Shown here one piece after another: positions 9,725 to 47,085 of a stretch of 64,000 nt of DNA. A program made the position numbers and the translations under genes. Numbering within the stretch: the first letter of the stretch is position 1; every line of letters starts with the position of its first letter. Source of the DNA: Nocardia tengchongensis (GTDB lineage: Bacteria > Actinomycetota > Actinomycetes > Mycobacteriales > Mycobacteriaceae); NCBI RefSeq assembly GCF_018362975.1, contig NZ_CP074371.1:4960001-5024000 (forward strand), read 5' to 3'. Below the pieces are notes generated by a model. The model was not told where the DNA came from and did no database searches. It worked only from the letters and a program-made list of their open reading frames with translations.

Positions 9725-9734
9725 GGTCTGTCTG

Positions 9735-9819
9735 TGTCCGGAGGGGGACTTGAACCCCCACGCCCTAATACGGGCACTAGCACCTCAAGCTAGCGCGTCT
9801 GCCATTCCGCCACCCGGAC
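9735..9819 (-). tRNA. tRNA-Leu (anticodon GAG), copy 1
   Basis: 85 nt. The acceptor stem GTCCGGG pairs with TCCGGAC followed by discriminator A. The T-arm contains GGTTCAAGTCC and there is a class II long variable arm. The anticodon stem CTAGC/GCTAG encloses loop TTGAGGT, giving anticodon GAG (reads CUU/CUC). CCA is not encoded. The gene is identical over all 85 positions to the plus-strand copy at 11922-12006. Frames running through this region in both directions translate tRNA sequence and are not genes. Confidence 0.97.
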
Positions 9820-11921: not shown

Positions 11922-12006
11922 GTCCGGGTGGCGGAATGGCAGACGCGCTAGCTTGAGGTGCTAGTGCCCGTATTAGGGCGTGGGGGTTCAAGTCCCCCTC
12001 CGGACA
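11922..12006 (+). tRNA. tRNA-Leu (anticodon GAG), copy 2
   Basis: Identical over 85 nt to the minus-strand gene at 9735-9819, with the same cloverleaf, GAG anticodon and no encoded CCA. The flanks also share short stretches (CACCGGTCCGG before and CCGGACACAGACAG after), then diverge. Confidence 0.97.
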
Positions 12007-12021
12007 CAGACAGTACGTTGA

Positions 12022-38420: not shown

Positions 38421-40251
38421 TCAGCTCATATTGACCACGCCTTCGGGCGCCGGGGTCAGATACAGCGCGGCGATCTCGGTGGCGTACTTGGCCGCGATCG
38501 GGTTGCGCTTGAGCTTGAGGGTCGGGGTGAGTTCGTCACCGCCGGGCTCCCAGCCCAGGTCCAGGATGGTGAACCGCTTGATCTGCTCGACCCGGTTGAG
38601 CTTGGTGTTGGCGGCGGCGATGGCCGCCTTGATCTCGGTGACGATTTCCGGGTGCGCGGCCAGGATCTTCAGGTCGGCGTCGGGGACGCCCAGCGCCTTG
38701 GCCCGTACCACCGCGATATCGAGGTCCAGGACGATGAGCGCCGCGATGAACGGCTTGGCGTCGCCGATCGCCGCCACCTGACCGACCAGCGAGGACGCCG
38801 CCTTCACGGTGTTCTCGATATTGGTGGGAGACAGGTTCTTTCCCGCCTCGGTGATGATGAGTTCCTTCTTGCGGTCGACGATGCTGATGTAGCCGTCACC
38901 GTCGATGGTGGCCACATCACCGGTGTGCAGCCAGCCGTCGGCGTCGATGGCCTCGGCGGTCTTCTCTGGCATCTTGCGGTAGCCGCGGGTGACGATGGCA
39001 CCACGTACCAGCAGCTCCCCGTCCTCGGCCAGGCGCACCTCGAGCCCGCGGATCGGGATGCCGACGGTACCCGGCTTGGGCTTGGCCAGCGGCGTGTAGG
39101 TGCCGACACCGCTGGTCTCGGACATGCCCCACACCTCGGTGACGGTGAAGCCCAGGCCCAGCAGGTATTCCAGGGTCTCGGGCGGGATCGCCGCGGCGCC
39201 GGAGGCAGCCACCCGCAGTTCGTCGAAGCCCAACGCGTGCCGCAGCTTCGACAGCACCAGCGCGTCGGCCAGCTTGTGCTGCACATCGAGCAGGGCACCG
39301 CGGCCGGTGCCGGCCAGGTCGGCGCGCGCGCGCCTGCGCGCCCACCCCGATCGCCCAATTGGCGAGGGCCTTCTTCACCGGGCTGGCCTCGGTGGCGAGC
39401 TTGGCGTCGATACCGGCCTTGATCTTCTGCCACACCCGCGGCACACCGAAGAACGCGGTGGGGCGGGCGTCGGGCAGGGCGGCGGCGATCTCGCGCGGAT
39501 CGGGCACGCACGTCATCTGGACGCCGGTGAACAGGTTGGCGCAGTGACCGGAAATACGGTCGGCCACATGGGCGGCCGGCAGATACGACACCGAACGGTC
39601 GTCGAGGCCGACGGTCAGCGGGCCCTCGACCAGGCCCACGATCTGGGCGACCACATTGCGGTGGGTCAGCTCCACGCCCTTGGACGGGCCGGTGGTGCCG
39701 GAGGTGTAGATCAGTGTCGCCACATCATCGGGCTGGACGGCCTGCCAGGCGGCGTCGAAGTCGAAGTCCGCCAGCGGCGCGGCCTCGACCTCGGCCAAGG
39801 TCAGCGTGCCCGCCGCGGAACCCTCCACCAGCACAATGTGTTCCAGTTCCACGCCCGCGCCGCGCACCACGTCCAGGAACGCCGGTTCGGTGATCACCAC
39901 CGCGTTCTCGGCATTGGTGAACAGGTGCGCGATCTGCTCGGGGGAGCTGGTGTTGTAGATCGAGAACGGCGTCGCCCCAAGGTGCAGCGCCGCGGTGTCG
40001 ACCAGATTGAACTCCGGCCGATTGGTGAGCATGATCCCCACCGCGTCCCCGCGCCCCACCCCGAGTGCCGCCAACCCGGCGGCGATACTGCGCACCCGCT
40101 CCCCGTACTCACGCCAGGTGAACTGCCGCGTCCCGCCCACGGTCCGCAATGCCACCTGCCCCGGCCGCAGCGTCAAGGTTTCCTGAAATGCCTCCGGAAT
40201 CGTGTGAACGGTCTTCCCAGATGCGTGCGCATACCCGATGTCAGTCGTCAT
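38421..40251 (-). CDS. Long-chain fatty acyl-CoA ligase, FadD15-like (frameshifted)
   Basis: About 610 residues in total, starting at the ATG at 40251. The N-terminal two thirds carry YTSGTTGPSKGVELTHRN and VPRVWQKIKAGIDAKL; the C-terminal part carries RVAASGAAAIPPE, WGMSETSG, HTGDVATIDGDGY and the catalytic-Lys region near the end. The two parts are in different frames. The break lies in the alternating GC run at about 39321-39332; correcting it gives AQARARADLAGTGRGALLD joined to VQHKLADALVLSKL, exactly where FadD15-type enzymes are continuous. Function: ATP-dependent activation of long-chain fatty acids as CoA thioesters for lipid synthesis or degradation. The frameshift is probably a sequencing error. 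Confidence 0.85.
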
Positions 40252-40467: not shown

Positions 40468-40722
40468 TTACCGATGCCGATATGCCCCGGATATGCGCTG
40501 CGCCGTTTGGCTTTCGCCGCCATATAGGAAAGCCGCGCGCTCGTTCTGCGGGTCCGTCACCAGCGGCACCTCCTTCACGATCAAGCCCGCCTGCTCGACC
40601 GCCGCGATCTCGTCGTGGTTGTTGGTCATCAGCCGCACTGTGTGGAGGACCAGCGCGAACGCCGCGTGATCGTAGGTACGTCGGTTACCCACACACTCGC
40701 AGCTCGCGCCCCTTCCGAACAA
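40468..40722 (-). pseudogene. ribA (GTP cyclohydrolase II) C-terminal remnant
   Basis: The 84-codon frame contains TYDHAAFALV, then VRLMTNNHDEIAAVEQAGLI and KEVPLVTDPQNE, which correspond to the C-terminal third of GTP cyclohydrolase II (compare LTNNPxKI...GI.V.E.VPL). There is no N-terminal part with the zinc-binding Cys residues, and near the end the family-like continuation (YMAAKAKRR...GHIGIGN) lies in another frame. It starts 44 bases past the end of the PfkB-like gene at 40766. It looks like the decayed remainder of a third ribA copy of this island. Confidence 0.55.
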
Positions 40723-40765
40723 ACGAATGTGCGCTCGCTTGCAGCTCTTTCATGCCGACCGCCTA

Positions 40766-42289
40766 CTACTCGGGATCCGGTGACTGCGGCATCAGACCGA
40801 CCATCGCGTCGATTCTCTGCGCGGACGGTATGCCATCGGGAACGCTTTCGACCGGATGCCGGCCGGACGCCCGTTGAATCAACGTCGCCATCGCCGCGGT
40901 CGCCCAGACGAAGTCGCCGGCATCGGCCGGGCGAGCCTTCTTGACCAGTCGGCTGGTCAAGGCCGAGGAGAAGGCCGAGGCGGCACCGGCGACATTCGAG
41001 ACCGCGGTACCGAATCGATCGACGTCTATGGCGTCGAGACCGCGGCGGTGGAAGGTGCACTGCGATCGGTCGATCTGGCAGACCGTGCCGACTCCGTCGT
41101 TCACCAGCGCCTCGGCGACCGCATCGCCGGGGAGATCGAGACGCAGTTTTGCGAGATCGTCGGAGGAACCGACCAGGTAATCGATCGCCGACATGTGCTC
41201 GCGCATATAGGGCGTGAGCGGGCGTGGCGGGCTGACATTCACGATCACCCGCGGAGACCCGGGACCCGCAGACGAATCCTTGATCGCACCAACGATTTCC
41301 AGGACCTTCTCGATCACCTTGTCGGTCTGTTCGAAGGTTAGAACCACGGCCGCCGCACCGGTGATCGCGTGCCGGGTCGGGGCGAGATCGAGGTCGGAGA
41401 CGGTCAGCCGAGTGCGCCCCTTCTTGATCGCGATCGACGAGTAGTCGCCATCGGCCGGGGCCACCACGGTCGTCACCGGTGTCCGCTTGCTCGGTTCGAC
41501 CTTGATCAGGCTGGTGTCGACCTTCTCGCGGGTCAGATAGTCGAGAATCTCCCGGCCCTCACCGTCGTCGCCGATGGCCGCGAGTAGTCGGGCATCGAGC
41601 TGGAGGCGAGCCAGTGCGACGGCTCGATTCAAGCCCTTGCCGCCCGGGCGGCTGCCGGAGTCTTCGCCCCACATCGAGGTTCCCGGCTGCGGGAAGTGCT
41701 CGACTTCGAGAACGTGATCGATGACGGCGTCGCCGATGATGACGATCGCGTTCGGCGCACCGTCGTACGGATCAGACAGCGAGGTCAGCAGTTTCGCGAG
41801 CGCCTCAAAGGCGGGCACCTCGTATCTGCCACCGCGAACCGCCCGAGCCGACGGCGCGGCCGGGACATCCTGGGCGCCGAAGGCCTCGTGCAGAGTCCGC
41901 CAATGCTGTGCTAACGAGATGCGTCGCTTGGAGAGCACGGCGCCGTAGTGCATCGCCAGATCGACACCCGGCGGTCCGTTCCCTTGCAGCAGACCCAAGC
42001 CCAGTTCGGCATCGACGACGATGCGGTCGGTGACCGACAGCCGACGAGCCAGGTGGCGGATCGTCTGGGGTAGGGCGGCTTCCGGCGTGATTCCCTCGAC
42101 GAACGCACACCGGCGAACGGCTGTGAGCTGCAGCAGAATTCGGGCATCGATCTCGCTCGCGGCGTTGAGCCCCTCGCTCAGACCCGCATTCCTCCTGACC
42201 TGCATGAGCCTTCCGCACACTGCATCGGTGGCGTGGTCAGACAGCGCAATCGTGGGTGCGCCGCTCGGTCCGACGCTGTCTCCGGCCAT
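40766..42289 (-). CDS. PfkB/ribokinase-like protein with extra N-terminal region, GAGD motif lost (copy 1)
   Basis: 507 residues from the ATG at 42289 (a TTG at 42298 is possible). Residues about 1-185 form an unrecognised region containing ITPEAALPQTIRHLARRL and DRIVVDAELGLGLLQ, conserved in copy 2. The rest is a ribokinase fold: VIIGDAVIDHVLEVEHFPQPG, then RPGGKGLNRAVALARLQL (sugar/nucleoside-binding GGKGxN). The second PfkB signature, normally GAGD with the catalytic Asp, reads AGAASAFSSAL, with Ser in place of Asp (coding bases 40976-40987). Phosphotransfer should therefore be impaired, or the protein uses another chemistry. It is 45 bases downstream of a ribA homologue in the same direction. 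Parts of the gene are G+C-poor for this window. Confidence 0.8.
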   Translation of the reverse strand: MAGDSVGPSGAPTIALSDHATDAVCGRLMQVRRNAGLSEGLNAASEIDARILLQLTAVRRCAFVEGITPEAALPQTIRHLARRLSVTDRIVVDAELGLGLLQGNGPPGVDLAMHYGAVLSKRRISLAQHWRTLHEAFGAQDVPAAPSARAVRGGRYEVPAFEALAKLLTSLSDPYDGAPNAIVIIGDAVIDHVLEVEHFPQPGTSMWGEDSGSRPGGKGLNRAVALARLQLDARLLAAIGDDGEGREILDYLTREKVDTSLIKVEPSKRTPVTTVVAPADGDYSSIAIKKGRTRLTVSDLDLAPTRHAITGAAAVVLTFEQTDKVIEKVLEIVGAIKDSSAGPGSPRVIVNVSPPRPLTPYMREHMSAIDYLVGSSDDLAKLRLDLPGDAVAEALVNDGVGTVCQIDRSQCTFHRRGLDAIDVDRFGTAVSNVAGAASAFSSALTSRLVKKARPADAGDFVWATAAMATLIQRASGRHPVESVPDGIPSAQRIDAMVGLMPQSPDPE

Positions 42290-42334
42290 GTCCGCCAAGG
42301 ATACCGCCGCACACTGGCATGGGGGCAGGTCAGA

Positions 42335-43201
42335 TTACCGAGACGGTGTTGCCTGCGGGCGTTGGGTGAGTTTGCGACGCCAAGCCCGCAGTCGGAGCCG
42401 TACCGAGGTGCGGGCTGGGTGCCAAGCCTGGACGATGGCGACCATCAGGATGAAGGCCGCCACGGCGAGTGGGCGTGGGGCCCAGTAGATCGCGGCAGCG
42501 GTCACCGTCACCGCGAGGGTCAGGAAGACAGGATCGGCCAGTCTGCCGATGCGATGGAACGACATGGGCGGCAGCAGGTGGCCGCGGTGGGTTCGCTTGA
42601 CTTCCATATACTCTCGCGCGCGGCGGCTACGGGGTTCGGTGATCAGAGGCACGCGAGTAACGGCGATATCACCGATCTGCAGGGCGTCCACCTTGTCTTG
42701 GTTGTTGGTCAGCAAGCGGACCGAGCGCAGGCCGAGGTTTTCGGCGAGGAAGCGGGTGGCGGTGTCGAACTCTCGGTAGTCGGGCTGGTGCCCCAGAGCG
42801 ACATAGGCGGAATACGTGTCGTGGCCCTCGTTCTGGGCGACGCGCAGGCCCTCGGCCTTGACCTCCAGACCGGCGCCGCGGCCTTCTTGTTCGAGGTAGA
42901 GCAGTACGCCGGCATCGGCGCGTTGGATCATATCCATGGCCTGGTCGAGTTCCGGTCCACAGTCGCAGTCGTCGGACTGCAGAGCGTCGCCGTAGAGGCA
43001 GCGGGAGTGGATGCGCACCAACGGGGCGGTGACGCGTTCGATATCGCCGAAGATGAGGGCGTGGCCGCCGTCGCGTCCGGGGATCGAATGCACTCGAACC
43101 CGCATCTCTGCGCCTTTGCGGGCGAGCAGGTGACTGGTTCGGGCGAGTTTCTGCCAATTCGCCAGATCCGCAACAGCAATCGACTCGTCCGCAACGCTCA
43201 C
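42335..43201 (-). CDS. GTP cyclohydrolase II homologue with C-terminal membrane anchor (RibA-like 1)
   Basis: 288 residues from a GTG at 43201 (GAGG seven bases upstream). Zinc site HSRCLYGDALQSDDCDCG with the three Cys in family spacing; EQEGRGAGLEVKAEGL; HDTYSAYVALG and PDYREF, keeping the Asp and Arg equivalent to E. coli D126 and R128. At the position of E. coli Tyr105 it has Leu (KAEGL versus KIRAY). In S. coelicolor homologues a non-Tyr residue there is linked to stopping at the formylated intermediate. After the enzyme domain, residues about 222-265 contain two hydrophobic helices (PVFLTLAVTVTAAAIYWAP and PLAVAAFILMVAIVQAW) and a basic tail: a membrane anchor foreign to ordinary RibA. 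Confidence 0.85.
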   Translation of the reverse strand: MSVADESIAVADLANWQKLARTSHLLARKGAEMRVRVHSIPGRDGGHALIFGDIERVTAPLVRIHSRCLYGDALQSDDCDCGPELDQAMDMIQRADAGVLLYLEQEGRGAGLEVKAEGLRVAQNEGHDTYSAYVALGHQPDYREFDTATRFLAENLGLRSVRLLTNNQDKVDALQIGDIAVTRVPLITEPRSRRAREYMEVKRTHRGHLLPPMSFHRIGRLADPVFLTLAVTVTAAAIYWAPRPLAVAAFILMVAIVQAWHPARTSVRLRLRAWRRKLTQRPQATPSR

Positions 43202-43321
43202 GCGACCGCCTCGTATCCCCGCGGGCCGTGATCCACCGCCCGACAGTGTCCGTTTGTGTGTGGTTACCGCCGGTCGGGGAGTGGCACAGGGCAGAGATCC
43301 GACCGTTGCTGCCGAGTTGCC

Positions 43322-44131
43322 GTGGCGGCACACGCGGACGGAGCCGAAGCCTACCCGGTCTCGGCGATCCTGGAGCGCATCCGGAGAGAATTTTCGGCCA
43401 CCATTCTGGGCCGCCGCAGTGACGCCCGGTTCCGCGATACGGACAATCCGGACCTTCTCGGGACCTACCATTCACTGATGGGTGCGGGGCCGGCGAAAAG
43501 CGTTAGCCGACAGGCGATGTGGGCCAGCCTCGATCACGCCAGTCATCGGATCACTCGCAAGGGCCAACAGATGCGCGTGCGGGTGACAGGCCTGCCGACC
43601 GATATCGAAGCCGGGCATATTCTGGCCTTCGGGTCCATCGAGGACGACTGTCTGGTCCGCATCCATTCGCAGTGCCTCTACGGTGAGTCGCTGGCGTTTC
43701 AGGACTGCGACTGCGGGCCCCAGCTCGAGCGCTCGCTCGATCTGATCCAGGCCGCCGGGTCGGGCATCCTCGTCTACCTCAACCAGGAGGGCCGCGGCTA
43801 CGGACTTCTGGCCAAGGCCCGCGGTTACGAGATCAGCGAGAAGAACCGCCTCGACACCTACGACAGCTACCTGTCGCTCGGCTACACCGAGGACAAACGC
43901 GACTACACCCTTGCCGCGCAGACGCTCGCCAAACTCGGGCTGTCGTCGATCCAGTTGATGACCAACAATCCGCACAAACTGCAAGCGGTTCGCGACGCCG
44001 ATATCCACGCCACCGTGATCCCGCTACGCACACCACCGCGGACGCTGCGCGAAGCCGACTATCAAGCGGCGAAGCGCCGCCATGGACATTGGTTGCCGAC
44101 CGACGATCCGCCCTGGTCACCAGATCTCTAG
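43322..44131 (+). CDS. GTP cyclohydrolase II homologue (RibA-like 2)
   Basis: 269 residues from a GTG at 43322; the start is uncertain because no strong ribosome binding site is visible. About 65 residues of unrecognised N-terminal sequence (AILERIRREFSATILGRRSD) precede the enzyme core. Zinc site HSQCLYGESLAFQDCDCG, NQEGRGYGLLAKARGY (Tyr105 equivalent retained, unlike copy 1), LDTYDSYLSLG, EDKRDY (D126/R128 equivalents) and LMTNNPHKLQAV. It should open GTP to the diaminopyrimidine as normal GCH II does. There is no fused RibB domain and no other riboflavin gene nearby, so a role outside riboflavin synthesis is likely. Divergent from copy 1 across 120 bases; its stop overlaps the convergent PfkB-like gene by four bases. 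Confidence 0.85.
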   Translation: MAAHADGAEAYPVSAILERIRREFSATILGRRSDARFRDTDNPDLLGTYHSLMGAGPAKSVSRQAMWASLDHASHRITRKGQQMRVRVTGLPTDIEAGHILAFGSIEDDCLVRIHSQCLYGESLAFQDCDCGPQLERSLDLIQAAGSGILVYLNQEGRGYGLLAKARGYEISEKNRLDTYDSYLSLGYTEDKRDYTLAAQTLAKLGLSSIQLMTNNPHKLQAVRDADIHATVIPLRTPPRTLREADYQAAKRRHGHWLPTDDPPWSPDL

Positions 44132-45624
44132 GACGCGTCCAGAGTCGCGTTGATCGCCTCACGGGTCGGCATGGAGTCGGGGATGCTCTTCTCTTTCGCG
44201 GCGCGCGCGGGAATCGCGGCCGCGGCCCATTCGAGGTTGGCACGCCCGATCCGCCTGCGTTGGTCGGGGTCGACAGCGCGCGGCTGGGTCATCAGCCGGG
44301 CGATGAACGCCGAAGCGAACGCCGATGACGTTCCGGGCGCATCAGGCCGGTCGGTTTGGATGGTCGCCCATACCGGCTCGACCCCCGGATTCTCGTCCGA
44401 GTACATGGCACAGCTGAGGCCGTGCAGGACCACGACCGACCCGACCCCGTGTTTCACCAATTGCGCGGCGATGTCGGCAGTCTCGGTGTCGGGTCGCAGC
44501 GCGGCGAGCTCGCCGACCGAGGCGATCAGGTAGTCGACGGTCCTGAGATAGTCGGGCAAGCGGGCCGGGAATCGTTTCGGTGGCGGGGTGGCGCTGACGA
44601 ACAGCCACGGCCGAATCTCTCGGTCGGCGATCGCGTCGGCGACCGCGGTGAGCACCTCGACGTTCTGCTCGAAGGTCAACAGCACCGCATCGGCATGAAC
44701 GAGAGCACGGGTAATCGGGATATCGGCGATGTCCCTGGCATCGAACCGGATCCGGTCGTCCTTGCCCGCCACCGAGTAGTTCCCACCGTCCTTGGCGACG
44801 GTCACCGCCGCGGTCGGTGTCGCGCCGCGTCGCGCACGAACCAGGCTGGTGTCGACGCCACGTGCCTGTAGGTACTCGACGATCAGCCCGGCCTTGTCGT
44901 CGTCGCCGACCGCGGCGAACAGCCGCGCGTCGACCCCCAGCCTGGCCAGCGCGACCGCCCGGTTCAGCCCCTTGCCTCCAGGGTGCTCGGAGAACTCCCC
45001 GTAGAGCGAGTCCCCAGCCTGGGGCAGCACATCGACGGTGCAGATTCGATCCCAGGCGGCGTCGCCGATCACCACGGCACTGGGCCGGGTCGTCGCACGC
45101 GGAATACGGTCGGCGGCAACGACGGACTCGAGGGTGAGTCCTCGCGCCAACGCGGTGAAGGCTTCCTCTTCGCGCCGTCCGCGCAGGGCGCGATTGTTGC
45201 GTGGCACCTGGGCGACGGGCACGCCCAGCTGCTCGTGCAACACCACCCAGTGCAGGGCGAGGCTGTCCCGGCGCTGACCCAGCTCGGGCCCGTAGAGCTC
45301 GTCGGCGATCGGTGCGGGCAGCTGATCGGCCAGCATGGACAGGTTCAGCTCGGCGTCGACGATCAGGCGGTCGGCTGGTTCCAGACCGCTCGCGATGTAG
45401 CGCAACGCCTCGGGCAGTGCGGCTTTCGGATCGCAGCCGGTGAGGTGGGCGACGCGGCGGACGATCACCAGGCCGAGCAGGGCTCCCAGGTCCACCGAGC
45501 GGTCGCGGTCGCCGCCCATGGCCCAGCGCTTGCGCAATTGCAGCAGGGTGTCACGCACGGCGCGCACGTCGTTGTCCTGCGCGGCCGTGTCGGCTCCACT
45601 GCTTCCCAGGTTCGGCTGCATCAT
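44128..45624 (-). CDS. PfkB/ribokinase-like protein with extra N-terminal region, GAGD motif lost (copy 2)
   Basis: 498 residues from the ATG at 45624, with GGGG six bases upstream; TTG 45636 and GTG 45627 are alternatives. Paralogue of the 40766-42289 product over its whole length. N-terminal region with DPKAALPEALRYIASGL and DRLIVDAELNLSML, then VVIGDAAWDRICTVDVLPQAG and HPGGKGLNRAVALARLGVDA. The anion-hole/catalytic motif is APGTSSAFASAFIARL, again Ser instead of Asp (coding bases 44323-44334). Parallel loss in both copies suggests selection for a non-kinase role or an altered active site. Substrate unknown; a GCH II product or nucleoside is an attractive guess. Convergent with RibA-like 2. 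Confidence 0.8.
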   Translation of the reverse strand: MMQPNLGSSGADTAAQDNDVRAVRDTLLQLRKRWAMGGDRDRSVDLGALLGLVIVRRVAHLTGCDPKAALPEALRYIASGLEPADRLIVDAELNLSMLADQLPAPIADELYGPELGQRRDSLALHWVVLHEQLGVPVAQVPRNNRALRGRREEEAFTALARGLTLESVVAADRIPRATTRPSAVVIGDAAWDRICTVDVLPQAGDSLYGEFSEHPGGKGLNRAVALARLGVDARLFAAVGDDDKAGLIVEYLQARGVDTSLVRARRGATPTAAVTVAKDGGNYSVAGKDDRIRFDARDIADIPITRALVHADAVLLTFEQNVEVLTAVADAIADREIRPWLFVSATPPPKRFPARLPDYLRTVDYLIASVGELAALRPDTETADIAAQLVKHGVGSVVVLHGLSCAMYSDENPGVEPVWATIQTDRPDAPGTSSAFASAFIARLMTQPRAVDPDQRRRIGRANLEWAAAAIPARAAKEKSIPDSMPTREAINATLDAS

Positions 45625-45712
45625 CACTCGCCCCAACCATAAGACCGTCCACGTTTGAACGTCGGCGGAAACGGCAATCTAATTGTGACAGCGTCAAACT
45701 GCGTTTCGGAAG

Positions 45713-45962: not shown

Positions 45963-46253
45963 ATGATTTACCCGAGTGCCAGCTCGATCACCAGCAGCGT
46001 CACCGGCGAGTGCGCCGAACGGCTGCCTCGCCGCCCGGAACCCGCGTGGCGGCTCAGTTGGCGCAGGGCGCCGCTGCTGACACGCGAACAGGCGCTGCTG
46101 GCAATGGAACTCACCGAGATCCTGCGCACCGCACCGATTCCCGCCGATCCGGCGTGGCAGCGGGCTCGGGACATCGGCGGGGAACTGGGCATCGATCTCG
46201 ATGACGCCAGTGACACCTTGCGGGCGCGACGGCGTGAGCGCGGGGAGTTATGA
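45963..46253 (+). CDS. Small protein of unknown function, tandem paralogue 1 of 3
   Basis: 96 residues, GGAGG six bases before the ATG. I do not recognise the family. The core WRLSWRRAPLLTREQALLAM...ELTEIL recurs in the two genes that follow, with the pattern W-R-x-S-W, then L-T-x-x-Q-A-x-x-x-M-x-L-x-E, then a helix ending in an Arg-rich tail (LRARRRERGEL). Predicted all-helical and cytoplasmic, no Cys motif, no signal. The stop overlaps the next ATG (TTATGA), so the first two are translationally coupled. Confidence 0.6.
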   Translation: MIYPSASSITSSVTGECAERLPRRPEPAWRLSWRRAPLLTREQALLAMELTEILRTAPIPADPAWQRARDIGGELGIDLDDASDTLRARRRERGEL

Positions 46254-46537
46254 CCATCTACGCGACCGATGACTGGTCGATGACCAGTGACCTGACCGAT
46301 GAGAACGCGGTGCGGGTGGCGGATCGGTGGATGCTGGCGTGGCGGTGTAGTTGGCTGCCGGATCGGCTGCTGACCCGGGCGCAAGCGCTGGCGGCTATGG
46401 TGCTGGCGGAGATCGTCGCGGCCGATCCCTATCCGCGACACGAAGCCGCGCAGGGGCGCATGATCAGCGCGGCGGGCGAGGTGGGGATCCCGGTGGAGCA
46501 GGCGGTGTTCCTGCTGATGCGGCGGCGCTCGGCATGA
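46250..46537 (+). CDS. Small protein of unknown function, tandem paralogue 2 of 3
   Basis: 95 residues from an ATG that overlaps the stop of paralogue 1. Core: WMLAWRCSWLPDRLLTRAQA, then LAAMVLAEIVAADPYPRHEA and GEVGIPVEQAVFLLMRRRSA. It shares with its neighbours the Trp/Ser/Trp start, the L-T-x-x-Q-A helix and the hydrophobic helix followed by Arg. The N-terminal 25 residues (including DDWSMTSDLTDENAVRVADR) resemble those of paralogue 3 (TTRAMTSDISPEYALREYRR), so copies 2 and 3 are the closer pair. Confidence 0.6.
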   Translation: MTIYATDDWSMTSDLTDENAVRVADRWMLAWRCSWLPDRLLTRAQALAAMVLAEIVAADPYPRHEAAQGRMISAAGEVGIPVEQAVFLLMRRRSA

Positions 46538-46677
46538 GAGCGGCCGGAAGCCGCGGTGCGAAATGAGCACTCGATGAGGGGATGGCAGGTCCCGGTGCGG
46601 CGATCAGCGGCGGCGGGCGAAACACGGTGGGCGGGCGGCGATCCCGCGGCGCGCACCGACGGCCTAGGGAGGTCCTT

Positions 46678-47085
46678 GTGACGATCGACATCACGACGCG
46701 GGCGATGACCAGCGACATCAGCCCCGAATACGCGCTGCGGGAGTACCGGCGCGGGCAGGCGGTGTGGCGGCTGAGCTGGCTGCCCGCCTATTACCTCACG
46801 CACGAGCAGGCCCAAGCCGGAATGGAATTGGACGAGGTGCTCTCCGACCCTGCCGTCGTCTACGACGAGGCGGCGCAGTTGTGGGCCGCGGACCTCGCGA
46901 CCCGGCTGGGTATCGGGGTCGAACGCGCGGTGATCCTGCTGGCGCAACGACTGGCCGAACGCCTGCACCGGGAGGAGTGGTCAGAGCAGGGAAGCGATGC
47001 ACCGACGGCGGCACTGTTGGGCTGGGGTGCCGCCGTCGGTCACGGCGCGGGGTCGGGCGCGCGGTCACAACACCTGTGGCGTTGA
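46678..47085 (+). CDS. Small protein of unknown function, tandem paralogue 3 of 3
   Basis: 135 residues from a GTG at 46678, set by AGGGAGG at 46666-46672. Core: QAVWRLSWLPAYYLTHEQAQ, AGMELDEVLSD, and TRLGIGVERAVILLAQRLAE. It has an additional C-terminal tail of about 40 residues, Gly/Ala-rich and unlike the other copies. It is separated from paralogue 2 by 140 bases and could have its own promoter. Function unknown. It converges on pyrD with 27 bases between the stops. Confidence 0.6.
   Translation: MTIDITTRAMTSDISPEYALREYRRGQAVWRLSWLPAYYLTHEQAQAGMELDEVLSDPAVVYDEAAQLWAADLATRLGIGVERAVILLAQRLAERLHREEWSEQGSDAPTAALLGWGAAVGHGAGSGARSQHLWR

Follow-up and report, generated by a model that had tools for sequence, protein, structure and literature searches.

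A GTP cyclohydrolase II relative and a probable pseudokinase of the ribokinase fold are paired in Nocardia and Amycolatopsis

Why should a Nocardia genome that holds an intact riboflavin operon carry, at another site, two further homologues of the GTP cyclohydrolase II RibA, each beside a ribokinase-like protein of the PfkB family? The question is raised by a 64-kb window (the whole stretch of DNA analyzed) from the 8.0-Mb genome of Nocardia tengchongensis, in which gene calls place four genes and one ribA remnant within positions 40468-45636. Our answer, based on sequence comparison and held tentatively, at somewhat less than an even chance, is that the unit combines a GTP-opening enzyme with a pseudokinase that would bind a ribosyl nucleotide and act as sensor or regulator. 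The unit is made up as follows.

40468..40746, minus strand: ribA-like remnant, with the family start motif and a C-terminal piece; middle absent
40766..42298, minus strand: PfkB1, ribokinase-fold protein of 510 aa with an N-terminal helical domain; Ser at the catalytic-Asp position
41783..42235, minus strand: N-terminal domain (NTD) of PfkB1, limits approximate, from alignments
42335..~43231, minus strand: RibA1, GTP cyclohydrolase II-like, Leu at position 105; start codon uncertain
43256..44131, plus strand: RibA2, GTP cyclohydrolase II-like, Tyr at position 105; start uncertain (43256-43481), core from ~43540
44128..45636, minus strand: PfkB2, ribokinase-fold protein of 502 aa with NTD; Ser at the catalytic-Asp position
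45130..45597, minus strand: NTD of PfkB2, residues 14-169, all-helical in the predicted model

The two RibA genes lie back to back, PfkB1 follows RibA1 after 36 nt, and RibA2 and PfkB2 run towards each other and overlap by 4 nt. Pfam GTP_cyclohydro2 matches both RibA proteins (E 1.9e-38 and 2e-39; 132.1 and 135.2 bits against a cut-off of 23.3) and Pfam PfkB matches both partners (E 2e-21 and 4.5e-24), so that gene calls and Pfam bear out the arrangement described in the initial annotation, with one ribokinase-like partner downstream and one convergent. The ribA remnant that it had placed at the edge is also real: positions 40468-40692 encode a RibA C-terminal piece (tblastn, 45% over 40 aa), and as the family start motif, read by eye from the sequence, stands just upstream of this piece, the remnant looks internally deleted. 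PfkB1 and PfkB2 are 38% identical over their full length, including the N-terminal region, which gave no Pfam match in either window protein and which the initial annotation had likewise failed to recognize, at about 185 rather than the ~155 residues delimited here.

As had also been stated, no ribB, ribD, ribE or ribH was found among the gene calls around the unit. Six places in the genome match GTP_cyclohydro2, two of which belong to the unit; at C1:6.006M a RibBA gene is flanked by those of riboflavin synthase and lumazine synthase (a ribE-ribBA-ribH operon), a second RibBA is at 7.384M, and two further single-domain copies are elsewhere. The RibA-PfkB unit is therefore additional and is not a split riboflavin operon, an objection foreseen from the start. 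The same genome encodes a very divergent single-domain RibA paralogue on a long branch (L008 9288-9917, G000:C1:4.280M).

To what extent the RibA-like proteins resemble a working GTP cyclohydrolase II was read from an alignment to E. coli 2bz0 of 122 rows (120 from the database and two from the window; P0103 is window RibA2, which is thus counted twice). The zinc Cys triad, D126, R128, K154, EGR and T149 are kept, the Cys triad, D126, R128 and K154 in all 122 rows, and we take these last residues to have the zinc-binding and catalytic roles. As they are invariant, the RibA-like proteins are likely to be catalytically active. The family nevertheless differs from the reference enzyme: position 53 is Arg in 118 rows and Gln in four, position 56 is Tyr in all 122, position 118 is Tyr in 121 and Phe in one, and these changes are absent from the four other RibA proteins of the genome. 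Q70 is replaced by Glu in 116/122 rows, Gln being found in window RibA2 and five Amycolatopsis rows. In the tree, the RibA-like family, Amycolatopsis copies included, forms one group apart from the genome's other RibA proteins (Shimodaira-Hasegawa-like approximate likelihood ratio test, SH-aLRT, 100 and 99). Both window proteins score below the cut-off of the equivalog-domain model TIGR00505 (140.8 and 135.8 bits against 205.85; two relatives reach 148.1 and 122); of the subfamily model NF001591 (cut-off 148), one window copy passes (151.5), as does one Nocardia relative, and the other window copy fails (145.6). A hydrophobic stretch or hairpin at the C-terminal end of window RibA1 and of the RibA-like proteins of L037, L043, L047 and L049 could anchor some members in the membrane.

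Position 105 divides the family, with Tyr in 81, Leu in 36, His in three and Met in two of the 122 rows; Tyr and Leu types are both found in Amycolatopsis as well (A. eburnea L081 and A. vastitatis L080). At two-copy loci one Tyr and one Leu type occur together in 28 of the 29 distinct genomes scored, G455 having Tyr and Asn, and two alike types were found at one such locus in none of these 29. (The 29 genomes correspond to 31 two-copy loci, L101/L179 and L102/L175 being the same; 31 genomes have at least two RibA-like copies, of which G501 was left out and G560 had only one copy that matched the pattern.) The RibA tree, with weak support at many forks, implies five changes between Tyr and Leu, of which three are made unavoidable by branches with good support. 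It is probable, by analogy with a Streptomyces paralogue, that the two types differ in how far the reaction goes.

In the predicted model, residues 184-502 of PfkB2 adopt the ribokinase fold (compared with E. coli RbsK, 1rkd). Residue counts were made on 140 rows, the generic kinases P0042-P0046 being left out. The catalytic Asp of the GxGD motif is Ser in both window proteins and is Asp in only 3/140 rows, the ATP-side Asn is kept in 2/140, and TxGxxG is lost, while most sugar-side residues, among them the sugar-site Asp, GGKG and Glu, are kept in 136-139/140. The first position of the anion-hole motif is Gly in 136/140 and the ATP-side Glu is acidic (E in 100, D in 35 of 140). With 90.6 and 89.2 bits, the window proteins are far below the cut-off of the ribokinase model TIGR02152 (299.65). 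The PfkB-like protein is thus probably a pseudokinase that has lost the kinase centre and kept the sugar pocket; as most of the sugar half is kept and the ATP and catalytic half lost, it probably binds a ribosyl ligand. As to the other objection foreseen from the start, a grouping with a known kinase of riboflavin or pentose metabolism, the PfkB domain resembles ribokinase in its fold but not in its score. In front of the PfkB domain stands the helical NTD; fold prediction, which the initial annotation had proposed, returned an all-helical region with no confident structural match, a weak similarity to sigma-factor helices being below usable level.

Is the pair a peculiarity of one genome? The full PfkB-like protein is present in 26/36 Nocardia genomes (that of the window and 25 others), and in all 25 fetched loci (L035-L059) its gene has an acyl-CoA synthetase gene on one side and pyrD on the other, these neighbors being recognized by eye from printed protein starts and by Pfam on one example each. 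A RibA-like gene adjoins it in 21/25; in L044, L052, L053 and L057 tblastn found none. Across 150 Nocardia genomes the NTD occurs in 126 and the RibA-like protein (E 1e-60 or better; in the 36 genomes, 238 bits was the lowest score of a RibA-like protein and 179 the highest of any other RibA) in 113, with both in 112, RibA-like only in one (G466), NTD only in 14 and neither in 23; this count leaves out an NTD piece of 47 residues in G029:C1 and the second of the G454 pieces. Furthermore, no more than 6 kb separates 142/146 RibA-like hits from an NTD hit; the four exceptions are extra copies in G468 and G538, a copy in G501 that is on a different contig, and G466, where a RibA gene and a RibA remnant persist and PfkB is absent. 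The Leu-type gene of G538 stands alone among many small open reading frames (L171 6454-7167; G538:C1:28456), where the eight neighbors scanned include an HNH endonuclease and a match to a PHROG family, and is probably on a mobile element; the second RibA-like gene of G468 (L170 8130-8915) is on another contig than the PfkB locus, among genes that look by eye like cytochrome P450 and other specialized-metabolism genes.

The search for RibA-PfkB neighbors suggested at the outset extended the pair beyond Nocardia. A scan of GTDB species genomes with two short patterns, which under-samples, found six Amycolatopsis loci with a 4-bp gene overlap and a different neighborhood, in A. vastitatis, A. eburnea, A. 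vancoresmycina, sp. 2-2 and sp. MtRt-6 (twice); two of the loci, L083 and L084, come from a single assembly and are almost identical. In these loci (L080-L085) an OmpA-domain protein (domain tested in L080 only) is encoded divergently upstream of the pair, together with a second divergent protein of ~280 aa and no confident family, inspection by eye showing both in five or more of the six loci. The NTD was found in only 4/394 genomes of the class, all of the same genus, Amycolatopsis members not being identifiable in that sample, and the NTD also occurs in one database entry that bears the name Streptomyces gardneri (P0218; name as recorded). Among same-strand pairs measured from gene calls, nine of 22 overlap by 4 bp and the other 13 are separated by 44-189 nt. 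Related pairs are under purifying selection (omega 0.04-0.28), and as orthologues also exist, the unit is not a chance arrangement.

These data alter the history first proposed, that of an acquired and duplicated island. Recent acquisition does not agree with the fixed site in Nocardia and the wide occurrence of the NTD. The 50% G+C reported for 41281-41340 is correct, yet is a weak argument for acquisition, as 53/6394 60-bp windows are equally low, only one of these 53 in the island. Island G+C is 66.4%, against 68.9% for the whole window, and 5% of island-sized windows are as low; third-position G+C is 0.77-0.85 in the island genes and 0.86-0.92 in five other genes. The duplication itself is real, but old: PfkB1 and PfkB2 fall in separate, well-supported groups, each with one Nocardia terrae PfkB, which places the doubling before these species. 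In N. terrae only a 28-residue remnant is left of the RibA2 copy next to PfkB2, and PfkB1 is accompanied by two RibA genes, an arrangement opposite to that in the window; between the two species, RibA copies have turned over and PfkB copies have stayed. Two NTD copies are found in 6/126 genomes.

From these residues and gene pairs, a dedicated two-component metabolic module may be proposed, consisting of a GTP-opening RibA-like enzyme and a catalytically dead ribosyl binder. The enzyme would open the imidazole ring of GTP to give a ribosylated pyrimidine 5'-phosphate, Tyr and Leu types probably differing in the extent of the reaction (opened and deformylated versus formyl-retaining). The pseudokinase, as its kept sugar side suggests, would then bind a ribosyl ligand, the product of the RibA-like enzyme being the simplest candidate, and the bound state might be passed on through the NTD. 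The small pathway on opened GTP first envisaged thus survives in that the unit stands outside the riboflavin operon, a role on a GTP-derived product being the best guess; processing of that product by phosphorylation is unlikely, the kinase centre being lost in nearly all members.

Several observations weigh against this proposal. The sugar-site Asn46 is Asn in only 94/140 rows. The three rows with Asp at the catalytic column are P0039, P0178 and P0253, two of which are early branches within the Nocardia part of the tree, and loss of the kinase centre may have been stepwise, or the Asp-bearing members may be active. Signalling through the NTD is without direct support, as no confident structural match was obtained. 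Window RibA2 and PfkB2, being convergent, are not co-transcribed. The Tyr/Leu pairing is partly the inheritance of old duplicates, and the distant third RibA-like copy of G538 is a second Leu type. In addition, 14 of the 126 genomes with the PfkB-like gene lack the RibA-like gene and G466 shows the reverse, so that neither partner strictly needs the other; the NTD of G454, scored as having both, is in pieces (a degraded pfkB). The 14 solo genomes fit a binder of the ordinary RibA product and equally fit other roles.

The closest rival is regulation of RibA by the pseudokinase, the PfkB-like protein regulating or scaffolding the RibA-like enzyme in a hetero-complex that controls the cyclohydrolase, with a general sugar or nucleotide signal, rather than the RibA product, as its ligand. 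This is unlikely on our estimate, but it draws on RibA-like genes being without the NTD in only 1/113 genomes and the NTD without RibA-like genes in the 14/126 just mentioned, as well as on the tight gene pairing with its frequent 4-bp overlap; this co-occurrence and pairing fit a sensor equally. We consider it rather unlikely that the PfkB-like protein is still an enzyme, its centre altered, which as kinase or transferase would modify the product of GTP opening: the intact fold, conserved sugar side, retained anion-hole Gly and ATP-side acidic residue, and the three Asp-bearing rows would suit it, whereas the near-complete loss of catalytic Asp, ATP-side Asn and TxGxxG does not. An extended form of the sensor proposal, a nucleotide-messenger system in which Tyr and Leu types make two different opened-GTP nucleotides, one deformylated and one formyl-retaining, that the dead ribokinase and its NTD read, controlling transcription or another target, appears quite improbable.

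Auxiliary riboflavin capacity, with extra RibA copies feeding the vitamin pathway, is to be judged decidedly improbable. GTP cyclohydrolase II is the entry step to riboflavin (PMC9478397), the catalytic residues are intact, and one window copy and one Nocardia relative exceed the NF001591 cut-off; however, the genome already has its operon and a second RibBA, the family-wide changes at 53, 56 and 118 set the proteins apart from the four other RibA, the PfkB-like partner is constant, and scores are under the TIGR00505 cut-off. That the unit is a decaying, non-functional relic is judged very improbable, since the ribA remnants in the window and N. terrae, the degraded pfkB of G454 and the lowered G+C and third-position G+C are outweighed by purifying selection and wide retention.

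Near the unit, the acyl-CoA synthetase gene (window 38421-40251, minus strand) is split into overlapping frames, 38421-39284 and 38917-40251, and is a single 609-aa frame in the Nocardia relative L035, so that a frameshift or sequencing error may be involved. On the other side, 45963-47085 (plus strand) encodes three tandem small proteins of 95-135 aa from an uncharacterized Nocardia family, present in several copies in 30/30 Nocardia genomes tested. Two tRNA-Leu(gag) genes at 9734-9819 (minus) and 11922-12007 (plus) are in opposite orientation ~2.2 kb apart. PADLOC 2.0.0 returned no anti-phage defence family for the four proteins of the unit at E 0.1.

How does the RibA-PfkB unit compare with known systems? 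It shares with GTP cyclohydrolase II (2bz0, TIGR00505) the domain and the active-site residues listed above, and differs by Arg53, Tyr56, Tyr118 and mostly Glu70 and by its scores. The Streptomyces coelicolor paralogue SCO6655, with Met at the Tyr105 position, is reported to stop at the formylated intermediate; it is likewise an actinobacterial RibA paralogue altered at this position, the Nocardia and Amycolatopsis unit having Leu instead of Met, and we know of no pseudokinase partner for it. With ribokinase (RbsK, TIGR02152) the PfkB-like protein has in common the fold, sugar-site Asp, GGKG and Glu, and departs from it in the lost catalytic Asp, ATP Asn and TxGxxG, the extra NTD and the score. 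To our knowledge neither the plant FRUCTOKINASE-LIKE proteins FLN1 and FLN2, of the plastid polymerase complex, nor yeast Gal3p, which have other partners and belong to other clades, has a RibA partner or such an NTD. The PfkB-like protein would work in a manner like Gal3p, a non-catalytic sugar-kinase relative according to PMC3409070. The two-step chemistry of GTP cyclohydrolase II is treated in PMC9478397, and PMC2853524 lists SCO6655 simply as GTP cyclohydrolase II. No description of the RibA-PfkB pairing was found in open-licence literature.

As far as the open-licence literature searched shows, the combination of a GTP cyclohydrolase II relative with a non-catalytic sugar-kinase relative is new, each kind being known separately. 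Judged from sequence models, the PfkB-like protein does not qualify as a ribokinase, whether by motif or by score, and the RibA-like protein falls short of the cut-off for a RibA equivalog. Paralogues of RibA are as a rule annotated as enzymes of riboflavin synthesis, and those members of this family that have been named appear in databases under labels such as 'GTP cyclohydrolase II' and 'carbohydrate kinase'; that they occur with a probable pseudokinase suggests a purpose other than riboflavin for one branch of RibA at least, and points to an undescribed making and sensing of an opened-GTP nucleotide outside vitamin synthesis. The NTD is a new domain to assign, and the unit offers a defined, easily cloned pair with which to ask whether an opened-GTP nucleotide may itself serve as metabolite or signal.

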